A DNA stretch of 38,238 nt from a virus, in the IMG/VR virus record IMGVR_UViG_3300046028_005467, positions 1 through 38,238 of that record. The stretch is one strand, 5' to 3'. Each line of letters opens with the position of its first letter. Position 1 is the stretch's first letter. The notes beneath the pieces were generated by a model, which was not told where the DNA came from, did no database searches, and worked only from the letters and a program-made list of their open reading frames with translations. The position numbers were made by a program, and so were the translations under genes. Positions 2,550 to 26,969 of this stretch are shown piece after piece.

Positions 2550-3299
2550 ATGCCAATTCTTGTTACAGGTAACACATACGCTGCAAACGATCAGGTTACA
2601 TCAACCAATCTTAACGCCGCCGTTAATAGCGCGACATTTGCATCTGGTGCGGTTGATGGTGTTACTACCCAGCTTTCAAGCGGTTCTGTAATTGTAAGGG
2701 ATGGCGGCATTTCTCCGGCAAAACTTAGCACGGGTGGGCCTTCTTGGAATAGTGGCGGAACGCTAACGGCCACAGAGTTTAGCGGACCCTTAACTGGTAA
2801 TGCTACCAATGTAACGGGGATTGTGGCTATTGCCAACGGCGGCACGGGTGCATCTACGGCTTCTGGCGCACGCACAAATCTGGGTGTTTTGGGCAGCAAC
2901 CTAAACAGCAACTTGGCCTCAAGCGTTGGAGTAACGCAAACCGCAGGCTCGGCTGGCATAGATCTTGTGTTTAATACCGCCAATGCGCCTACGGTTACGC
3001 TTACAGCGGGCACTTGGTTGCTAATTGGCTCGGTTGCGGGGAGAACAACCGACATAGCGGACACCATTAACGCTCAGTTCTGGAACAACACCGACTCGGC
3101 TGCTTTTGGTGGCGGGGCATCGCAATTAATCGTTGATTTTGCACGCGCAGATCTTTCGTGCGTTGGAGTAATTACCGTCGCGTCTAACAAGGTTATTTAC
3201 TTCAAGGTGTTTCGCACCGCCGCATCCACCCTGGATTTGGGAAGCTCTACCCCAAGTGGACCGGCTGGATTTATTCAGGCCGTCAGGCTAACCAACTAA
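2550..3299 (+). CDS. Tail fibre / appendage protein with C-terminal globular head
   Basis: A 249-residue protein. The N-terminal part (about 1-45) has the NQVTSTNLNAAVNSATF pattern seen in phage fibre subunits. The middle (about 75-115) carries the shaft-type sequence TNVTGIVAIANGGTGASTA. Residues about 128-249 are a beta-rich domain (VTLTAGTWLLIG..., NKVIYFKVFRT) resembling C1q/TNF-type jelly-roll receptor-binding heads. The head resembles that of the larger fibre at 34392, so both probably belong to the adsorption apparatus. There is no S74-type self-cleaving chaperone. Function is inferred from architecture. Confidence 0.75.
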   Translation: MPILVTGNTYAANDQVTSTNLNAAVNSATFASGAVDGVTTQLSSGSVIVRDGGISPAKLSTGGPSWNSGGTLTATEFSGPLTGNATNVTGIVAIANGGTGASTASGARTNLGVLGSNLNSNLASSVGVTQTAGSAGIDLVFNTANAPTVTLTAGTWLLIGSVAGRTTDIADTINAQFWNNTDSAAFGGGASQLIVDFARADLSCVGVITVASNKVIYFKVFRTAASTLDLGSSTPSGPAGFIQAVRLTN

Positions 3300-3309
3300 C
3301 CCTTAATGA

Positions 3310-3642
3310 ATGTCAGCCATTTCCGAAGCAATCCAATTGTATGGAGCTGATTTCTCAAGGGTTCATGGGCTTTATCTGGAGCACGGCTACTGCTATTCAG
3401 GGCCAACCGTACTTGTCTTGGCCCGTCCCTGTATTGAATCTGATTACAAGCGTTGGGTTAGTGTTGAAGAAGCTGATGCTTGGTGGGTTGAGATGGCTGT
3501 TGGGCCACTCGGTTTACTTGCGCTATACTCCAACATTGTATTTCCACTTCCCAAAATTGGCTGGGCTAGAGAATTTAAAGGAAAGCCAAAGCCACGTTTT
3601 TACAACTTCAGCAAATTAAAGACAGTTATTAACACTTTTTAA
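3310..3642 (+). CDS. Conserved-type hypothetical protein, 110 aa
   Basis: I do not recognise the family. The protein is soluble and rich in aromatic residues (W, Y, F), with two cysteines near residues 28-42 (GYCYSGPTVLVLARPC) and a basic C-terminus (EFKGKPKPRFYNFSKLK). It lies 10 bases after the fibre gene and three before the next gene, in the same direction, so it is co-transcribed with virion genes. It could be a fibre assembly factor or an accessory (moron) gene; nothing decides between these. Confidence 0.65.
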   Translation: MSAISEAIQLYGADFSRVHGLYLEHGYCYSGPTVLVLARPCIESDYKRWVSVEEADAWWVEMAVGPLGLLALYSNIVFPLPKIGWAREFKGKPKPRFYNFSKLKTVINTF

Positions 3643-9900: not shown

Positions 9901-10551
9901 GTTGAAGAGAACGCGATGTTTAGGATCAAGGAGTTTGTGGAAAACTCTCAGTTGGTGGCATCCCGGTATTCTTCGGCGCGTGACTATGCGAAGAAATCAC
10001 CGGAGGAAGTGGCGGCTATTTATGCGGAGTCTAATGCCACCCACAAGGCGAACATGCAGGAGGTCATTAAAAAGGTAAACGGCTTGCGTACCCTTAATTT
10101 TTCGGAGGACGAAATAATTAAAGTTCTGGGTGGCGAGGGTGCCAGACTTGGTAATTCTGCAATTTTGGACACGCTTAACGGAAAGGTTTCTGACATTCCG
10201 TTGGTGAAACGTGTAACCCCCACTGCGGTTTGGGAGGAAAAGATTTCTGTTCTTCCGCGCCAAGAGCAGATGAAAGAGATCCAAAGGATTGCCCGAGTAA
10301 ATCCCAGCCTTGGCAAATCGCTCCTGTCCATTTCCCGCTCAGAGCAGCTTGCAAAGCAGCGCGGAATGACCCCAAAAGACTCGCTCATAATGGGCCTTGG
10401 TTCTTCTGACGGAACCCGTGCTGGATACATTTATCAGCAGTCGATTGGATTCCCGAATCCAGATGCTTACATTCAATCTATGGCGCGTAAGGGTATTGTT
10501 ACCCCTGAAGTCTTCCGCCAGATCAAGCTGCTTCAGCAGGCTAATCAGTAA
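6949..10551 (+). CDS. Large internal virion / DNA-ejection protein (gp16-type position)
   Basis: At 1200 residues this is the largest protein of the phage. It begins with YLVKDSKTGVELELNGEGPP, a short N-terminal module seen on large virion proteins, then a Gly/Ala hydrophobic region (about 64-200) likely to be membrane-active, then long helical segments to the end. No lysozyme or transglycosylase motif is visible, unlike T7 gp16. Size, order and composition suggest the ejection protein that conducts DNA across the inner membrane. It is the last gene of the late block; its stop overlaps the minus-strand gene at 10541 by 11 bases. Confidence 0.75.
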   Translation: MPTYLVKDSKTGVELELNGEGPPPTDQELEGIFAQYSNQQPIAAQQSIAAEQPKPQEEPSLGQVGTGIAAEIGIGVGGQAAGAALAPFTLGISYPVLAFSGGVAGSIAAQEIEGRKDISVGRALFAGLVNLIPGSSAVKGGAKAGATIAKAAGRGALTGAAEATVIAGVDEQKLPTFKEIGTYAGFGTLAGGLLGGAMLGGKRLWDKIGNKTPQQVDNAIKSGELTPQEFLPTSDNADANAALRSVQKAAEDVVVAAEDAPMIAVATAKTSTLMGRFADRLNMAKALVAPSRVLGKQIQSEAILSRQAAQADEELGSRISKRVDVFVKKQVDPIDAQEKINAYLDRAIEDLPPTYKEIVPELDLFREKMRDLQGKVIANIDTGRTTATPETRDLITKSMDEGKYLTREFKWFTNKDYFPTQKQLDAARKELGGDADEVLASLNSKKLSAVENRNFLPTAIDGFLRKKKDLGPAVLDYLGEITEPGERIRGSLTRVARGVYRDEADSAIKQLLIDRGMASNLSAPGMAELSLRRYEQGGSGLYVPQYVQKALDQIYLSGGKDAVRVPVSSALSDLWNTAVGVSKAVKVLANPPSYAVQLYGNMANLAGMGINPFSGAGRGLRMALSEYGPIERLTKNPQARISLLREINEMTRYGIKGSNILDSDIRSSLERGFFSDTTQKIIDPISKAYTVPDTMGRFVAWKHHQRLFRDVFPTANEETIKRYAADVTNDVYQNYARLSRTGKELSRVGILPQFASFTMEFARNQYNQGRVIREMMAGTFGNGVRGLGPANVAAMREEGGRRLSALLGIYGLTFASIKAFNANNGVDNTTEAALKDVAIPSYDDNSFLAITYDPKTRTGKYANPSYIVPHAVGLSALDAGLKGEPVQGVVDFLAKEFVGEGSFLFRSTAAALFNVDPKNRKKISAEVDGYKNTKERVQFLIGDAFEPGFAREVRKLQQAQRGQGELTTGDVARRQIGVRLNSFKVEENAMFRIKEFVENSQLVASRYSSARDYAKKSPEEVAAIYAESNATHKANMQEVIKKVNGLRTLNFSEDEIIKVLGGEGARLGNSAILDTLNGKVSDIPLVKRVTPTAVWEEKISVLPRQEQMKEIQRIARVNPSLGKSLLSISRSEQLAKQRGMTPKDSLIMGLGSSDGTRAGYIYQQSIGFPNPDAYIQSMARKGIVTPEVFRQIKLLQQANQ

Positions 10552-10654
10552 TTGGAGCCTCCCGTTCCGCCACAATGCCCGCCTTGGCCGTTTCCTTGGC
10601 TTTTACGGGCTTTTCGGGCTTAACGGCCACCTCCACCCAGAAAAGGTCTTTCAT
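10541..10654 (-). CDS. Tiny ORF, 37 aa, end of leftward operon
   Basis: MKDLFWVEVAVKPEKPVKAK followed by an Ala/Lys/Glu-rich tail. It starts within the stop of the preceding ORF (ATGA, 10651-10654), which supports expression by coupling. Its last codons (REAPIT) are the 16-base copy of the tRNA-Thr 3' end. No family is recognised. It ends tail-to-tail with the ejection protein gene, with an 11-base overlap. Confidence 0.5.
   Translation of the reverse strand: MKDLFWVEVAVKPEKPVKAKETAKAGIVAEREAPITD
10548..10563. repeat. 16-bp copy of the tRNA-Thr 3' end (left copy)
   Basis: AGTAATTGGAGCCTCC is identical to 11059-11074, which contains the 3' acceptor end and CCA of the tRNA gene. The two copies are in direct orientation about 511 bp apart and enclose three small ORFs and a gene remnant. 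The layout is like att sites made by insertion at a tRNA 3' end. Confidence 0.85.
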
Positions 10655-10758
10655 AGCCGCATAAGGGCAAGGAGCGCCGGGGTGCCAAGGTCACTGTCCA
10701 CAACAATGTCGTTGTAGCTGTCCTTCCCGTAATAGGATATCAAGTTGTCGTCGCTCAT
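10651..10758 (-). CDS. Tiny ORF, 35 aa
   Basis: MSDDNLISYYGKDSYNDIVV followed by DSDLGTPALLALMRL. Both ends overlap neighbours by exactly four bases (ATGA at 10755-10758 upstream and 10651-10654 downstream), the signature of translational coupling in this operon. No family is recognised; it is acidic and soluble. Confidence 0.55.
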   Translation of the reverse strand: MSDDNLISYYGKDSYNDIVVDSDLGTPALLALMRL

Positions 10759-10973
10759 GGCGTGTATTCGTTTACTTGTTTTTCGGCGCGTTTCATAGCC
10801 AGCGCAACAGCGGCCCTTATGCCGTTTTTGCTAATTGAAATCCGCTCGTCTTCATTCCCCCAAATTACTTCCCATTGATTATGTGTCTTGGGGCAATCAG
10901 GTTGGCCCCACCACCTGACGCCAAGCCCATTTTTTTCCATAAAATCAATCATTTCTGAGTCGGTCGTTTTCAT
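10755..10973 (-). CDS. Hypothetical protein, 72 aa
   Basis: Starts at the ATG at 10973 (MKTTDSEMIDFMEKNGLGV), which has a good ribosome-binding site (AAAAGGAG about 7 bases upstream), rather than ten codons earlier. It contains RWWGQPDCPKTHNQWEVIWG and a C-terminal RAAVALAMKRAEKQ helix, a pattern of small phage proteins of unknown role. The upstream frame (gene remnant) stops inside its start (AAATGA). Confidence 0.6.
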   Translation of the reverse strand: MKTTDSEMIDFMEKNGLGVRWWGQPDCPKTHNQWEVIWGNEDERISISKNGIRAAVALAMKRAEKQVNEYTP

Positions 10974-11058: not shown

Positions 11059-11074
11059 GTAATTGGAGCCTCCA
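11059..11074. repeat. 16-bp direct repeat at tRNA 3' end (right copy)
   Basis: Identical to 10548-10563. It covers the 3' acceptor strand, discriminator base and encoded CCA of the tRNA plus five bases beyond. Confidence 0.85.
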
Positions 11075-11138
11075 CTCGGAATCGAACCGAGATCTAAAGT
11101 TTACAAAACTCTTGTTTTACCGTTAAAACTATGGAGGC
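11064..11138 (-). tRNA. tRNA-Thr (anticodon UGU)
   Basis: Read on the minus strand, the acceptor stem GCCTCCA pairs with TGGAGGC, followed by discriminator T and encoded CCA. The D arm is GTTTTAACGGTAAAAC. The anticodon stem AGAGT/ACTTT holds loop TTTGTAA (anticodon TGT, reading ACA). The T arm is CTCGGTTCGATTCCGAG. All four arms pair and the length is 72 nt plus CCA. It lies in the leftward operon between small ORFs and is probably processed out of that transcript. Confidence 0.93.
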
Positions 11139-15674: not shown

Positions 15675-16988
15675 TTAAATTGCCGCCTCCATAAACCTTG
15701 TCGTTCGTCCGTGGAAGCGCAGAGGAACGTGCGCCAGCGGGCCGTCCCGCAGCTTGAGCTGCAACAGGTCGGTGTCGAAGTATTCCATGTCCAATGCCTG
15801 CCCCGGCTTGCGCCATAGCGCCAAGCAACGGTGGGCATCCTCCTCGATCCCGCCAGCATCCCGGAAATCCGTGCGGGTCGGCTCCCGGCGTTCGCTCTCG
15901 CTGCTGCGGCTTAATTGCGCTCCCACCACCAAGGCGCAGCCAAGCACCTTGCGCAGAGGAATCATGGCCTTGGAAACAAGGCTCATGCGCTCATAGGGCG
16001 ACTTCCCGCCTGTGCCGCCGACAAGGCCAAGGTAGTCGAGGATCACCAGATGGGGCTTAAACGTGCTGGCAAGCAGGCGGCAACGGCTCTGGATCTGGCC
16101 CAGGGTCATGTCGCGGTCATAAATCACCAGATTCTTCGTGCTTCCGGCAAAACGCAGCTTGTCGATGAACTCCTTTTGCTTCCCCGGAAGCTCCTCCGCC
16201 AGCTTTTTTACATTCACTTGGGCACGCTGCCCAACAATGGCCTTCAGAACTGCCTTGTCCTCAGTCTCTAACGTAAAGAAAGCAACCCTGTGCCCCTGTG
16301 CTATGGCCGTTCCGGCAAGCTGGGTGAGGAAAGACGACTTGCCGTGGGAGGTTCTTGCGCCAACGACAACATACTCATGCTGCTCAATAGGGGTGGCGTA
16401 GCGGTCAAAAGAGGGCAATCCGGTGCAAATGAGGGTCCGGGTGGCCTTATCCCCGCGAATCGCCTCCTCGGCGTCCAGAATGGCGTCTGCGGCGATCTCT
16501 GGAAGTTGCCGGTGCGTGTGGCTAACGCTGCTTACAACCTCCGCCACCTGTTCGAGAATGGGGCTAATGCTTGCCAGGTCTCCGGCCCCGTCCTTAATCC
16601 CCTCCGCCGCCGCCTTCAAAAGCCTGTTGGCTTCCCGCTTGCGGAAAAGCTCATGCAAATGCTTGATGTATTCAGGCGCGTGCAGGGTGGTGTCAACGTC
16701 GTGCTGGGTGAGGGCGGAAACGCCTCCCAACCCCTCCAGCTTGGCGGCATTTCCGGCGCAGGCGGCGTAAATCCCCGCAGACGAGCAATCCGCGCCCAGC
16801 ATTGCCTGCTCGCAAATGACGCGCCATAGCGCCCTGTGCTGCGGGTGCTGGAAGTGGGCATCCGTTATACCCGCCTCCTGTGCCTTGCCGACAGTTTGCC
16901 CGCCCCTTTCCTCCAGCATGGCGCAGCCGATGAGTTTGCTTTCTAAAGCGATGTAATGGCTGTATGCCATTTCTTGTGGTGTTTCCAT
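15675..16988 (-). CDS. DnaB-like replicative helicase
   Basis: 437 residues. The N-terminal helical domain (1-115) is DnaB-like (LESKLIGCAMLE, HPQHRALWRVI). The RecA-like domain has Walker A VVVGARTSHGKSS (207-219), Walker B LVILDYLGL (314-322), sensor QLSR (358-361) and RDAGGIEEDA (376-385). There is no primase domain or zinc finger as in T7 gp4, so priming and polymerisation must come from the host or unrecognised genes. It is preceded by the GTGCAA-box region. There is no Shine-Dalgarno before the ATG at 16988. Confidence 0.93.
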   Translation of the reverse strand: METPQEMAYSHYIALESKLIGCAMLEERGGQTVGKAQEAGITDAHFQHPQHRALWRVICEQAMLGADCSSAGIYAACAGNAAKLEGLGGVSALTQHDVDTTLHAPEYIKHLHELFRKREANRLLKAAAEGIKDGAGDLASISPILEQVAEVVSSVSHTHRQLPEIAADAILDAEEAIRGDKATRTLICTGLPSFDRYATPIEQHEYVVVGARTSHGKSSFLTQLAGTAIAQGHRVAFFTLETEDKAVLKAIVGQRAQVNVKKLAEELPGKQKEFIDKLRFAGSTKNLVIYDRDMTLGQIQSRCRLLASTFKPHLVILDYLGLVGGTGGKSPYERMSLVSKAMIPLRKVLGCALVVGAQLSRSSESERREPTRTDFRDAGGIEEDAHRCLALWRKPGQALDMEYFDTDLLQLKLRDGPLAHVPLRFHGRTTRFMEAAI

Positions 16989-18956: not shown

Positions 18957-19358
18957 TTAATGAGAAATAACGGTGTTGCGTTCAATGAAATTCAACACCT
19001 TGCGCCCGTAGGCGCGTGTTGCGGCCTTTTGGTGCCCCTTGGGGCCACCGTTATGCACACGGGCCAGCGTGTCGATGTCGCCACGCTCCCATGCTTCCGC
19101 TGCGTGCCTCTTGAAATACGCCGTAGCCACCTTTCGGGCATAGCCAAGGTGTGCCACATTTTCATAAGCTCCCGGCACACGGCTATCGGCATGGTAACCG
19201 CGATGGATCTGCAAAGGGCCAAGGGCCGCGCCCTTGTCTCCCCTTATTGCTCCAAGCCTGCCCGACGTTTCCACATGATGCAACGCCTTCCAAAAAGTCT
19301 CTGGTGCGGCTCCGTTTGCTACGCAAACCAACCCAAACGCTAACATGGTGTTTTTCAT
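18957..19358 (-). CDS. Muramidase / lytic transglycosylase-like endolysin
   Basis: 133 residues from ATG 19358. The hydrophobic N-terminus (NTMLAFGLVCVANGA) looks like a signal or signal-arrest-release anchor. The core ALHHVETSGRLGAIRGDKGA, ALGPLQIHRGY and DTLARVHNGGPKG...AYGRKV matches lysozyme-fold transglycosylases: catalytic Glu30 in VETSG, then G-D-x-G-x-x-x-G-x-x-Q-I. It would cut peptidoglycan at lysis, or locally during entry. It is the first gene after the structured leader and lies on the strand opposite the holin-like genes. Confidence 0.82.
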   Translation of the reverse strand: MKNTMLAFGLVCVANGAAPETFWKALHHVETSGRLGAIRGDKGAALGPLQIHRGYHADSRVPGAYENVAHLGYARKVATAYFKRHAAEAWERGDIDTLARVHNGGPKGHQKAATRAYGRKVLNFIERNTVISH

Positions 19359-19848
19359 TGGCCGCATTTGAATCACCCTTTCAACATGGCGTCAATCGCA
19401 TTTCTCTTTTTATTTTTAGCTGTCTCCTTCGCTCCTTTTCCTTAAAAAAGGAGCGTGTGTTTCAGGGGGTGTCGCTTCGTCATTTAAGCTAGGTTTTGGC
19501 TTCTGGACACACCTCGCCCCGCTAAGGGGTCGAGGGAATTAAATGCTTCATTTAAGAAGGTTCGGTTCGTTGTCTCTTTCAAGCACAGGGGAACGGCCAG
19601 GAATCCCTGTATTGCTTGAAACGCTCGGAGCCCTTAGGCTCGCCTTAGCATGGGCGCGATCCCATTGCGTTTTTTTCTTAGCGTTCAAGCGTGCGCGGCT
19701 TTACGGCTCAGGGTTCTTTTGTGTTATCGCGGGAAAAGGAAATCCGCCAGAGCGCCTCTAAGTTCGCATTGGCGGATATTGACCACCGATTAGGTGGCAA
19801 AACACGTTGCGGCCTTAGAGAGCCGAGGTAAAGCACTTTTGCTCTACC
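19359..19848 (-). ncRNA. Hairpin-rich leader / structured RNA candidate
   Basis: About 490 bases with no convincing gene, transcribed leftward from the promoter at 19854-19862 toward the muramidase. Consecutive hairpins (plus coordinates): 19827-19848 (GGTAaAGCA/TGCTcTACC), 19783-19797 (CCACC/GGTGG), 19742-19777 (ATCCGCCA/TGGCGGAT), 19648-19668, 19628-19641 (GAGCC/GGCTC), 19577-19621 (14 bp with a 3-nt bulge), 19539-19555 (TTAAATG/CATTTAA), 19512-19535 (CCTCGCCCC/GGGGtCGAGG) and 19430-19455. Most stems are perfect. It may be a regulatory 5' leader or a stand-alone RNA; no known class is recognised. Confidence 0.55.
19430..19455. repeat. Perfect 10-bp inverted repeat
   Basis: CGCTCCTTTT (19430-19439) and AAAAGGAGCG (19446-19455) with a 6-base loop. 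In the leftward RNA one arm contains AAGGAG, which hairpin formation would hide. No T tract follows on either strand, so it is not a plain terminator. Confidence 0.75.
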
Positions 19849-19853
19849 CCACC

Positions 19854-19862
19854 AGTATATCA
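19854..19862 (-). promoter_or_regulatory. Extended -10 promoter (TGaTATACT), leftward
   Basis: On the minus strand CGTGATATACT gives TG-n-TATACT with no good -35. Predicted start is about 19847, at the top of the first leader hairpin. It faces away from the plus-strand promoter at 19923, and the two share CGTGATATA as an inverted repeat (19856-19864 and 19921-19929). Confidence 0.6.
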
Positions 19863-19922
19863 CGTTTTTTTGCTCTGCCCCTGTTTTTCTTTCATTAGCT
19901 GAAAAATCCTTGACTCAAACCG

Positions 19923-19931
19923 TGATATAAT
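19923..19931 (+). promoter_or_regulatory. Extended -10 promoter (TGaTATAAT), rightward
   Basis: CCGTGATATAAT gives a perfect TATAAT with TGn. A TTGACT at 19910 is only 10 bp away, too close to serve as a -35. Predicted start is near 19938, at the foot of the inverted repeat that begins the RNA candidate. Confidence 0.65.
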
Positions 19932-19933
19932 AT

Positions 19934-20093
19934 CCTCTGCAAATAGGAACCCGCAAGGTTCTACCCCCCGCAGGTTTCGTGGTGTTTCCGACGGGGGTTC
20001 TTTTTGCAGAGGGAGGAACACCCTAAAGCTAAAAAAATCAACCTCTGGACAGAGGCGAAACTAAAAAAAGCCCCCAGAAATGGGGGCTTTTTT
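19934..20093 (+). ncRNA. Small structured RNA candidate with terminator
   Basis: CCTCTGCAAA (19934-19943) pairs with TTTGCAGAGG (20003-20012), enclosing two hairpins: GAACC/GGTTC (19947-19961) and CCCCCG/CGGGGG (19965-19997) followed by TTCTTTTT. A further CCTCTG/CAGAGG hairpin (20042-20054) precedes the strong terminator at 20064-20093. No start codon with a useful frame occurs. The expected transcript is about 155 nt, or about 65-75 nt if it stops at the inner terminator-like hairpin. Function unknown; no known family is recognised. Confidence 0.6.
20064..20093. terminator. Bidirectional intrinsic terminator
   Basis: AGCCCCC (20069-20075) pairs with GGGGGCT (20082-20088) around AGAAAT, with an A tract before and a T tract after, so it works on both strands. 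It ends the rightward small RNA and the leftward early cluster, whose last stop codon (20092-20094) overlaps it. Confidence 0.93.
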
Positions 20094-20322
20094 ATTGGGC
20101 GCGAGGCTTAGGTTGTTTCACCTCTAGCTTGAAGCCTGGATGCAGGTGGGCGTGGCGCACAAGCTGGTCGATTATGCGCCCCAATGGAAGGCCGTAGGTG
20201 CTTCTCCAGGCCTCGATGCAAAGCTCAGTAGCCTTGGCCACGAAGGGGCCGCGCTTGTGGCCTAAACGCACCCTTGGCACGCCGTCCTCAGGCTTTGGCC
20301 CGCGCCTTTTGTGCTTAGTCAT
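20092..20322 (-). CDS. Small basic protein, ribbon-helix-helix-like, 76 aa
   Basis: A basic N-terminus (MTKHKRRGPKPEDGVPRVRL) followed by TELCIEAWRSTYGLPLGRII then DQLVRHA, a helix-turn-helix spacing as in ribbon-helix-helix proteins (GLPLGRIIDQLV). Possibly a DNA-binding regulator. It is the last gene of the leftward early cluster; the stop lies in the terminator. It starts within the stop of the upstream gene (ATGA). Confidence 0.55.
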   Translation of the reverse strand: MTKHKRRGPKPEDGVPRVRLGHKRGPFVAKATELCIEAWRSTYGLPLGRIIDQLVRHAHLHPGFKLEVKQPKPRAQ

Positions 20323-24840: not shown

Positions 24841-25359
24841 TTGGTGGATAAAGAAACGAACATGGTGTCGCCGGTAATCGTTAGTAGTGTGGCACTTAGC
24901 CGGAGCAAGGGTATTGAGCATAAGGATCCGAGGATGGCTGTTATGGCGTTGGAGATGTTGTGTACGGGCAAGGGGTACAAGGAGGTGGAGTTGGCGACGG
25001 GGTTGGGTTTTGACATTTTGGTTGGGTTGCGTGCTAGGCATAACATGGCTATTGATGTTAGGCGGAAGCAGCTTGCGGAGGATGGTTTTGAGATGGCGGA
25101 GGGTTTGCGATTGTTGGCGAAGCAGAAGATGTTGCAGCTCAGTGAAGACCCGGAGGCGTTGGCGAAGGTGAACCTGAGGGACTTGGCGGTGTCGTATGGT
25201 GTGGCGGTGGACAAGGGGATGTTGGCGTTGGACGGGAACAAGGTGACGGTGGAGTATGTGAGCAAGCGTCCTAGTTTGGCTGATGCGCAGGCGGCAATCA
25301 ATGAGGCGAGGGAGGCGTTGCAGAAGGAAGCTATTGCCGTGGATGCGGAGGTTGCCTGA
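24841..25359 (+). CDS. Terminase small subunit (TerS-like)
   Basis: 172 residues from TTG 24841; GTG 24844 and ATG 24862 are alternatives. The helical N-terminal half, MAVMALEMLCTGKGYKEVEL then TGLGFDILVGLRARHN, looks like a DNA-binding helix-turn-helix. Later helices (KQKMLQLSEDPEALAKVNLR, DAQAAINEAREALQKEA) suit oligomerisation. It overlaps terL by one base (TGATG). Codon use is striking: Leu is nearly always TTG and third positions are mostly G, unlike neighbouring genes. Assigned by position and architecture. Confidence 0.75.
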   Translation: MVDKETNMVSPVIVSSVALSRSKGIEHKDPRMAVMALEMLCTGKGYKEVELATGLGFDILVGLRARHNMAIDVRRKQLAEDGFEMAEGLRLLAKQKMLQLSEDPEALAKVNLRDLAVSYGVAVDKGMLALDGNKVTVEYVSKRPSLADAQAAINEAREALQKEAIAVDAEVA

Positions 25360-26969
25360 TGGCTTTGAAGTGGAAGAAGCATGAGATATTGACGCCTCCT
25401 TCTCAGGAGGACTTGTCGAAGATGCAGCCGGAGAAGCTGGCGGAGCTTCATGAGATTTACCACCAGGCGATAGCGAACGCTGATGCCGACCCCTATCGGT
25501 ATGGCTTCAAGTTGCCGCATTGGCATATTGCCAACGAGGAGCTGGCGCATTTCAACGAGATATTATGCAGCGGGGGCAATCGTAGTGGCAAGACGACATA
25601 TGCGGCCAGGTGTGTGGTGCAGGCGGCGATTGAGAATCCCGGCTCAATGATTTTTTGTTTTGCGCAGAACAATGACGTTTCGATCAGGCAGCAACAGAGT
25701 GCGGTTTATGACGCGCTTCCCGCAGAGCTTCGCAAGAAGGTTCTGGGTGCAGAAGAAAACATTAGTTACACACGAAAGAATGGCTTTTCCAAATCGTCTC
25801 TTATCCTTCCCGGCACGCACTCGCAGATTGTCTTCAAGACCTATGCGCAGTTCCTTAACAATGACACGATTCTGGAGGGGTCCGAGCTTGGTAGCCGTGA
25901 GCCTGCGTGGACTAACATTGGCGCTTGGTGCGACGAGTATCTTATTGGGCCGGAGCTTATTGCCACCCTTCGTTTTCGTTTGGCGACGCGCAACGCAAAG
26001 CTCATTGTTACGTTCACGCCGATTGACGGCTATACGGAGGTGGTTCGTGACTATCTTGAGGGGGCCAAGACGACAAAGACAAAGCAGGCTGCGCTGCTTG
26101 GGGGACGCCTCGTTCCATTCGTTCAGCACAGCAAAAACAGAAATGCCGCCATCATTTACTTTCACTCCGAAGACAACCCGTTTGGTGGCTACGAGCGTAT
26201 TGCGTCTGACCTCAAGGGGCGGAGTGAAGAAGACATCCTGACCCGTGCCTATGGCGTTCCCACCAAGAGTGCCAGCAGCCGGTTCCCTAATTTTAACGTG
26301 GAGGTGAATGTCCTGCCGCATGACAAGATGCCGACGAAGAACACGACGAAGTATATGGTGTTGGATCCGGCTGGCCGGAAGAATTGGTTTATGTGCTGGA
26401 TTGCGGTGGATGCGACGGAGACGTTCTACGTCTATCGGGAATGGCCGGACGTGGCCGTGGGCGATTGGGCGAAGTGGCACGGCGGGAAGTGGATTGGCGG
26501 CGAGGGCAGCAAGGGGTTGGGCTATGGCATGAAGGACTATGTGGATCTGATTTTGCAGATGGAGTCGGATAGCAACGATGTCATCTTTGAGCGGCTGATT
26601 GATCCCCGGCTGGGTGCGGCCAAGTATCAGGCGCAGAATGGGGCCAGCAGCATCATTGAGGATCTGGAAAACAACGGGCTTCTTTTTGTCCCGGCTCCGG
26701 GCCTGGACATTGAGGACGGGTTGCAGGCGTTGCAGACAAAGATGGCGTTCAACAGGAACAAGCCGGTGGATGGGCTCAACCGCCCTCACTTTTATATTTC
26801 CGACAGGTGCCAGAACATCATCACGGCCTTGCAGGAATACACGGGCGACGGCGGCAGCGACGAGGCCCAGAAAGACCCCATTGATGTGCTGCGTTATGCG
26901 GCCATTGATGGCATACAGTTTGTGGACGAGAAAAACAACAAGGCCACCAAACGTGGATTAGGATACTAA
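25359..26969 (+). CDS. terL: Terminase large subunit (packaging ATPase/nuclease)
   Basis: 536 residues. ATPase: Walker A CSGGNRSGKTT (70-80), Walker B IGAWCDE (187-193), coupling motif TFTPIDG (218-224). Nuclease (RNase H fold): D336 (YMVLDPAGR), D415 (RLIDPRLG) and D506/D509 (KDPIDVLRYA). This is the motor that pumps DNA into the prohead and cuts it; with TerS it recognises the packaging site. The length is normal for the family. The first base of the ATG is the last base of the TerS stop. Confidence 0.96.
   Translation: MALKWKKHEILTPPSQEDLSKMQPEKLAELHEIYHQAIANADADPYRYGFKLPHWHIANEELAHFNEILCSGGNRSGKTTYAARCVVQAAIENPGSMIFCFAQNNDVSIRQQQSAVYDALPAELRKKVLGAEENISYTRKNGFSKSSLILPGTHSQIVFKTYAQFLNNDTILEGSELGSREPAWTNIGAWCDEYLIGPELIATLRFRLATRNAKLIVTFTPIDGYTEVVRDYLEGAKTTKTKQAALLGGRLVPFVQHSKNRNAAIIYFHSEDNPFGGYERIASDLKGRSEEDILTRAYGVPTKSASSRFPNFNVEVNVLPHDKMPTKNTTKYMVLDPAGRKNWFMCWIAVDATETFYVYREWPDVAVGDWAKWHGGKWIGGEGSKGLGYGMKDYVDLILQMESDSNDVIFERLIDPRLGAAKYQAQNGASSIIEDLENNGLLFVPAPGLDIEDGLQALQTKMAFNRNKPVDGLNRPHFYISDRCQNIITALQEYTGDGGSDEAQKDPIDVLRYAAIDGIQFVDEKNNKATKRGLGY

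Follow-up and report, generated by a model that had tools for sequence, protein, structure and literature searches.

A probable structured noncoding RNA in a phage record, assigned most likely as a divergent member to a kissing-loop RNA family absent from Rfam

A hairpin-rich region between a promoter motif and a muramidase-like gene

The window analyzed here is a 38.2-kb phage record from IMG/VR, taken at its full length. On its minus strand, a hairpin-rich stretch lies between an extended -10 promoter motif and a muramidase-like open reading frame (ORF), with a DnaB-like helicase and other replication genes farther along on the same strand, beyond the muramidase (Table 1). The virus appears to be a phage of environmental bacteria. 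Relatives of its terminase are numerous among viral contigs, although only two contigs (L002 and L003) are closer than about 75-79% terminase identity, and neither reaches the RNA. The nearest database phage by terminase is C75C1 (44.5%), which gave no match to the kissing-loop descriptor described below, and a host search with the terminase found nothing in GTDB genome contigs.

Table 1. Positions of genes, promoter motif and predicted RNA parts in the window
Feature	Position	Strand	Basis or remark
Terminase	25359-26969	plus	
Extended -10, TGA-TATACT (TGATATACT)	19854-19862	minus	Read from sequence; without a clear -35
Predicted transcription start	about 19848-19846	minus	Placed from the extended -10
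hp0, first hairpin, 9 bp (GGTAGAGCA/TGCTTTACC)	19827-19848	minus	Mean pair probability 0.97
hp1, CGGC-TCTCTAAG-GCCG	19810-19825	minus	Descriptor match
hp2, a hairpin flanked by hp1 and hp3, GCCACC/GGTGGT	19782-19798	minus	Fold; relatives have a hairpin at the same place
hp3, terminator-like: outer stem, 3x3 internal loop, inner stem	19742-19777	minus	Descriptor match
U-rich tract, then CCC (TTCCTTTTCCCG)	19730-19741	minus	7 T in 12 nt
RNA body, about 300 nt of further helices	19425-19729	minus	Folding; predicted 3' boundary
Possible counterpart of the relatives' stem-TTAATA-hairpin core (GTGCTT..AAGCAT-TTAAT-hairpin)	19505-19586	minus	
Muramidase-like ORF, downstream of the RNA	18957-19376	minus	139 aa from GTG; ATG at 19367 probable
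DnaB-like helicase	15675-16988	minus	

The minus strand of 19375-19870 has a predicted folding energy of -158.6 kcal/mol, compared with -136.1 +/- 5.6 for shuffled sequences (z = -4.0; 0/100 shuffles as good), and the predicted transcript (19848-19425) gave z = -3.84. The plus strand of the same region also folds well (z = -3.0), as is expected for inverted repeats, so the strand is not settled by folding alone. In sliding 150-nt windows across 16-24 kb, the RNA region was among the strongest folders, together with others such as 17001 and 20001. Individual hairpins on the minus strand include stems of 9 bp (19848-19827), 8 bp (19777-19742), and 11 bp with one G-U pair (19455-19430), as well as a long bulged hairpin near 19616-19576.

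These results bear out a first-pass annotation of the DNA, which had described a hairpin-rich minus-strand RNA region with no credible gene and no resemblance to a known RNA class. A protein-coding explanation was rejected, as the long overlapping frames had no relatives in the fetched loci (0 for the plus-strand ORF at 19543-19761, for example). Rfam models gave no match within the RNA region at the gathering score; when the cutoff was relaxed to E <= 5, the sole matches were terminator-like and fell at 19933-20100. Folding, the Rfam result, and the lack of a conserved frame together support a large structured RNA outside known classes. The minus strand probably carries one structured noncoding RNA, with a predicted length of about 420-460 nt.

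The muramidase-like ORF has relatives at 50-69% identity and matched neither Pfam nor PHROG. It directly follows the RNA, as the first-pass annotation had stated, although the last bases of the interval then assigned to the RNA belong to this ORF. The same annotation placed the RNA at the head of a lysis/replication operon. This describes the window, where the muramidase and then the helicase and replication genes lie on one strand, but does not hold throughout: the relatives' RNA is followed by small ORFs without known function, and the muramidase lies upstream of it. Moreover, where relatives encode muramidases about 60% identical to that of the window, the gene is immediately preceded by ordinary small ORFs. 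The RNA is therefore no constant companion of this gene, and a muramidase-dedicated leader was rejected. The RNA family only happens to precede the muramidase in the window.

Several further elements were observed nearby. On the plus strand, 19909-20020 comprises a divergent, promoter-like TTGACT-N10-TATAAT and then an element of 87 nt (z = -2.6), which is closed by 10 bp between its ends and has a pair of internal hairpins as well as a T tract; this element is possibly a small RNA opposite to the large one. A near-perfect bidirectional terminator (AAAAAAGCCCCCA..TGGGGGCTTTTTT) at 20064-20093 gave sub-threshold matches to several Rfam models. The window also encodes a tRNA-Thr (TGT) on the minus strand (11064-11138), 8 kb from the RNA, and several relatives carry a tRNA too.

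Noncoding RNAs at the corresponding place in related phages

A long noncoding stretch lies downstream of the homologue of window gene 20092-20322 in L041, L035, and L046, and blastn and nhmmer tie this stretch to L010, L036, L044, L039, L038, L011, L034, L031, L054, and L021. A scan with a helicase alignment yielded 64 loci, and the RNA profile matches L113-L139 and, weakly, L140. The relatives' RNAs are about 460 nt long, noncoding, and on the early/replication strand, which is also that of the DnaB helicase, 0.9-2.7 kb upstream of it; the corresponding distance in the window is 2.4 kb. In several relatives, a terminator of its own lies directly 3' of the RNA (L118 3375-3388, L142 4080-4099), which is consistent with an autonomous RNA, and others run into the next ORF.

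No member searched had an Rfam match, and the L113 RNA had none in INPHARED. A core pattern of the family was present in 35 stretches of viral contigs and absent from GTDB genome contigs. The open-licence literature searched contained no published description of a kissing-loop phage RNA family of this kind. The family is absent from Rfam and occurs in dozens of related environmental phage contigs.

In the alignment, hairpin 1 (hp1) is followed about 70 nt on by a terminator-like hairpin (hp3), made of an outer stem, an internal loop, an inner stem and a 7-nt loop, and then by a U tract. The loops of the two hairpins are complementary over 7 nt, a match preserved in at least 14 distinct loop pairs. 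Covariation was assessed in a purely sequence-based alignment (A4) of 18 distinct members of the main type. Its named structure had 99.2% of cells paired, versus 89.8% with shuffled partners and 35-46% with slid partners. The kissing helix was 100% paired, with both sides changed in 3/7 pairs; two pairs of a second pseudoknot (ACCGTT loop) and one in each of four other helices were likewise changed on both sides. The count of both-side-changed pairs does not itself exceed shuffles (9 versus 7.6; 69/500), while the paired fraction, the changed cells, and the covariation score all do (0/500). The first-pass annotation had proposed covariation among homologues as a check, and such evidence came from RNAs at the syntenic place in relatives. 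The searched sets (INPHARED by blastn, and searches with the window helicase and gene 20914) yielded no close homologue of the window RNA, so the covariation concerns the relatives' RNAs and not the window's own pairs.

Members that are otherwise unalignable also keep the contact: L140 (GGTGACT/AGTCACC), L142 (ACTGAAG/CTTCAGT), L032 (CTTGCGA/TCGCAAG), L167 (GGGCAAG/CTTGCCC), L196 (GTGAAGG/CCTTCAC), L205 (GTGGTGA/TCACCAC), and L216 (GTGATGG/CCATCAC). In L137, which is unrelated in sequence, the kissing complementarity is kept with other letters. When copies were located by the ACCGTT core, which is independent of the kissing loops, 64/66 had a 7-nt complement at the expected spacing; the copies are not independent of one another because the loci overlap. 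The U-rich tail after hp3 was kept in 12/12 types examined, including the window.

Comparisons between members point to a modular organization. L115 and L129 have a common 5' domain (95%) and different centres (41%), while L115 and L124 have a common centre (98%) and different 5' domains (43%). Among L113-L139, the central ~230 nt are 99-100% identical even though the 5' domains differ by 12-37%, and in others the centre is wholly replaced. The centre of the RNA is thus the product of recent module exchange between phages.

Some loci depart from the common layout. L200 carries two diverged RNA copies on opposite strands (10210-10790 on plus and about 2770-3350 on minus), about 7 kb apart. In L140 (about 1620-1880; an ORF of about 86 aa) and L216 (about 80 nt, noncoding), extra sequence is inserted immediately 3' of the hp3 U tract. 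RNAs of similar size in L179, L181, L183, L185-L187, L189, and L191-L193 share the 3' motif CCNGNAAYGGGTGARYTGTGC and the TTAATA core, and a U tract follows a terminator-like hairpin in the majority; they gave no kissing-loop match and are not in Rfam.

Placement of the window RNA by architecture and position

In the window, the hp1 loop CTCTAAG (19820-19814) is complementary over 7 nt to the hp3 loop CTTAGAG (19762-19756) at a distance of 58, within the range of about 50-80 nt between 5' hairpin and terminator-like hairpin that was used for the family, although the simplest fold of the window RNA puts this complement into an ordinary nested helix, not a kissing loop. The hp3 of the window and those of relatives have an identical order of elements (outer stem, internal loop, inner stem, loop), and a U-rich tract follows. 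The tails after hp3 are TTCTTCTTTTCCCG in L142, TGTTTCTTTTCCCG in L032, TTTTTTGTTGCCC in L113, and TTTTTATTTAGCCC in L167, and TTTTCCCG is common to the window, L142, and L032. The extended -10 that the first-pass annotation had noted at the upstream minus-strand edge is present upstream of hp1; likewise, in 28/33 kissing-loop matches an extended -10 precedes the hp1 loop by no more than 60 nt. The window RNA also lies downstream of gene 20092-20322 and upstream of the DnaB helicase, all on one strand.

The descriptor for this architecture combined an hp1 stem of at least 4 pairs, a 7-nt Watson-Crick loop match, an hp3 of at least 8 pairs, and a U-rich tail; the window match was noticed by eye before it was written, so its thresholds are not blind to the window. 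Over 1.53 Mb, both strands, it gave 29 matches, 28 of them in family RNAs including that of the window and one elsewhere (L085, GC-rich). L032 was first picked by the descriptor, and its resemblance to L142 was seen afterwards. Within the window, the descriptor matches once only, at the RNA, compared with 0.02-0.1 matches per strand in window shuffles and 0/3000 in shuffles of the RNA region.

By sequence, the window RNA stands apart. A search with nhmmer --max at E up to 10, using the main-type profile (L041/L113), returned no window row, and the ACCGTT..GGGG pseudoknot core of the main type had 0 window matches with 3 mismatches. L142 and L167 also fail the main-type profile and lack the core, and were placed by architecture and a common 3' motif. 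The window RNA further differs in its body layout and in hp0, an extra hairpin before hp1 that has no counterpart seen in relatives. The TTAAT variant in its body has a weak first stem (mean pair probability 0.36), and a correspondence with the TTAATA core of L140, L142, L167, and L183 is weak and suggestive only.

The match might instead be coincidental, arising in an unrelated hairpin-rich leader or in an element that acts as DNA, for example an origin of replication. Good folding on both strands, the adjoining cruciform-like plus-strand element and bidirectional terminator, and the lack of sequence similarity to the family would all fit such a coincidence. Nonetheless, the shuffle results, the single window match at the syntenic place just after an extended -10, and the agreement of hp3 architecture and U-tract-CCC tail with the family make it quite improbable. 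We therefore consider the window RNA most likely a divergent member of the new family, by architecture and place and not by sequence, rather than a lysis-specific leader, and its resemblance to the family would probably reflect homology, with convergence less likely. Since members diverge past sequence and profile search yet keep the architecture, such RNAs are probably under-counted.

Possible control at hp3 and comparison with known phage RNAs

Folding, the promoter-hp1-hp3 architecture, a place like that in relatives, and the kissing-loop covariation of those relatives are supported by observation. Building on these, we propose that transcription would start from the extended -10 on the minus strand, and that the 5' domain would fold hp1, hp2, and the terminator-like hp3 with its U-rich tail in order. 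The hp1 and hp3 loops may then pair over 7 nt, as a kissing loop or pseudoknot, with the body of about 300 nt and the muramidase/replication operon to come. Polymerase would reach hp3 about 100 nt past the start, and the contact, forming as hp3 emerges, could tune termination or pausing there, so that transcription would either end in a short product or continue through the whole RNA and the downstream operon. The U-rich tail in all 12 types argues for a terminator-like role of hp3, and the conservation of the downstream body as RNA in the main type implies that polymerase must often pass it; together, these favour control of termination or pausing by the kissing contact. Counting against this reading, hp3 and the contact are compatible with each other, and a classical antiterminator alternative is thus not apparent. 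Taken as a whole, we regard it as somewhat probable that the window RNA is a divergent member of a phage RNA family not described before, with termination or pausing control at hp3.

The nearest known kind of RNA is represented by GOLLD and ROOL. Both are found in phages, and kissing loops hold their structures together (PMC12286853). GOLLD resembles the family as a large, phage-borne structured RNA with conserved and variable parts and no known function, but it is often >800 nt, lies near tRNA islands, and has some intermolecular kissing loops; ROOL shares several pseudoknots and kissing loops, whereas the family's promoter-proximal terminator-like hairpin has no described counterpart there (PMC12286853). 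The family could likewise be a trans-acting or structural RNA, in which hp1 and hp3 make a tertiary or intermolecular contact, the RNA acts as a stable particle, and its position in the operon is incidental. Its large size and many helices, the kissing loop with a second pseudoknot, the swapping of modules between phages, and the terminators right after the RNA in several relatives (L118 and L142, for example) speak for this possibility. It is nonetheless on the unlikely side, as GOLLD and ROOL covariance models matched neither the window nor the relatives searched, no tRNA adjoins the window RNA, and a purely structural role needs no U-rich tail after hp3, which is kept in all types.

Processive antitermination offers a different comparison. 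The put (HK022) and EAR antitermination RNAs are far shorter than the window RNA and, like it, have strong hairpins near the start of a leader transcript that precedes phage or operon genes; we know of no put or EAR element with a kissing loop onto a terminator-like hairpin. A cis-acting leader of this kind, whose nascent RNA modifies polymerase so that terminators are read through into the muramidase/replication operon, would suit the early hairpins and the position before replication genes, and the terminators right after the RNA in several relatives would need passing unless the operon has other promoters. However, the length of the RNA and the fact that some members are closed by their own terminator make this reading rather improbable.

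Few large phage RNAs are known, and the best studied, GOLLD and ROOL, build unexpected RNA particles without known role. Returning to control at hp3, we tentatively suggest, as a view that may well not hold, that these widespread, fast-evolving RNAs of ~450 nt, with a promoter-proximal kissing loop clamping a terminator-like hairpin and exchangeable body modules, form a new functional class that controls or accompanies genome replication, with the window RNA among its most divergent members. If so, a family that Rfam does not yet model, that covaries strongly, and whose simple element lends itself to testing would provide both a new class and a direct assay.

Self-cleaving RNAs near the muramidase in relatives are separate from the kissing-loop RNA. 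Phages can carry HDV-like theta ribozymes (PMC10879173) as well as hammerheads of type II (PMC3088659), and self-cleaving RNAs of both kinds were seen upstream of the muramidase in relatives; the window RNA matches neither. An HDV-like ribozyme in the window was rejected because a descriptor of the nested double pseudoknot (P3/L3, P4, J4/2) and model R1 found nothing in the region, and a hammerhead because no covariance-model match was obtained up to E = 5. Among relatives, HDV-like ribozymes were found in L107 (1909-1980; Rfam HDV-F-prausnitzii, E = 0.005), L067 (8122-8228, minus), L044 (8351-8458, minus), L036, L021, L038, L077, L064, and L108-L112, with P1, P2, P3/L3, P4, and J4/2 all present (alignment A1, model R1). 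Each closes, on the 3' side, a noncoding leader of ~400-500 nt that precedes an operon for a small protein and muramidase; homology of the window RNA to the ~400-nt leader of L044/L067 was rejected, as the two have no similarity. A type II hammerhead ribozyme (Rfam) lies upstream of the muramidase in L052 (6989-7050, minus), its CTGATGAG motif recurs in L050, L057, and L157, and the hammerhead-bearing phages encode some of the muramidases most similar to that of the window.
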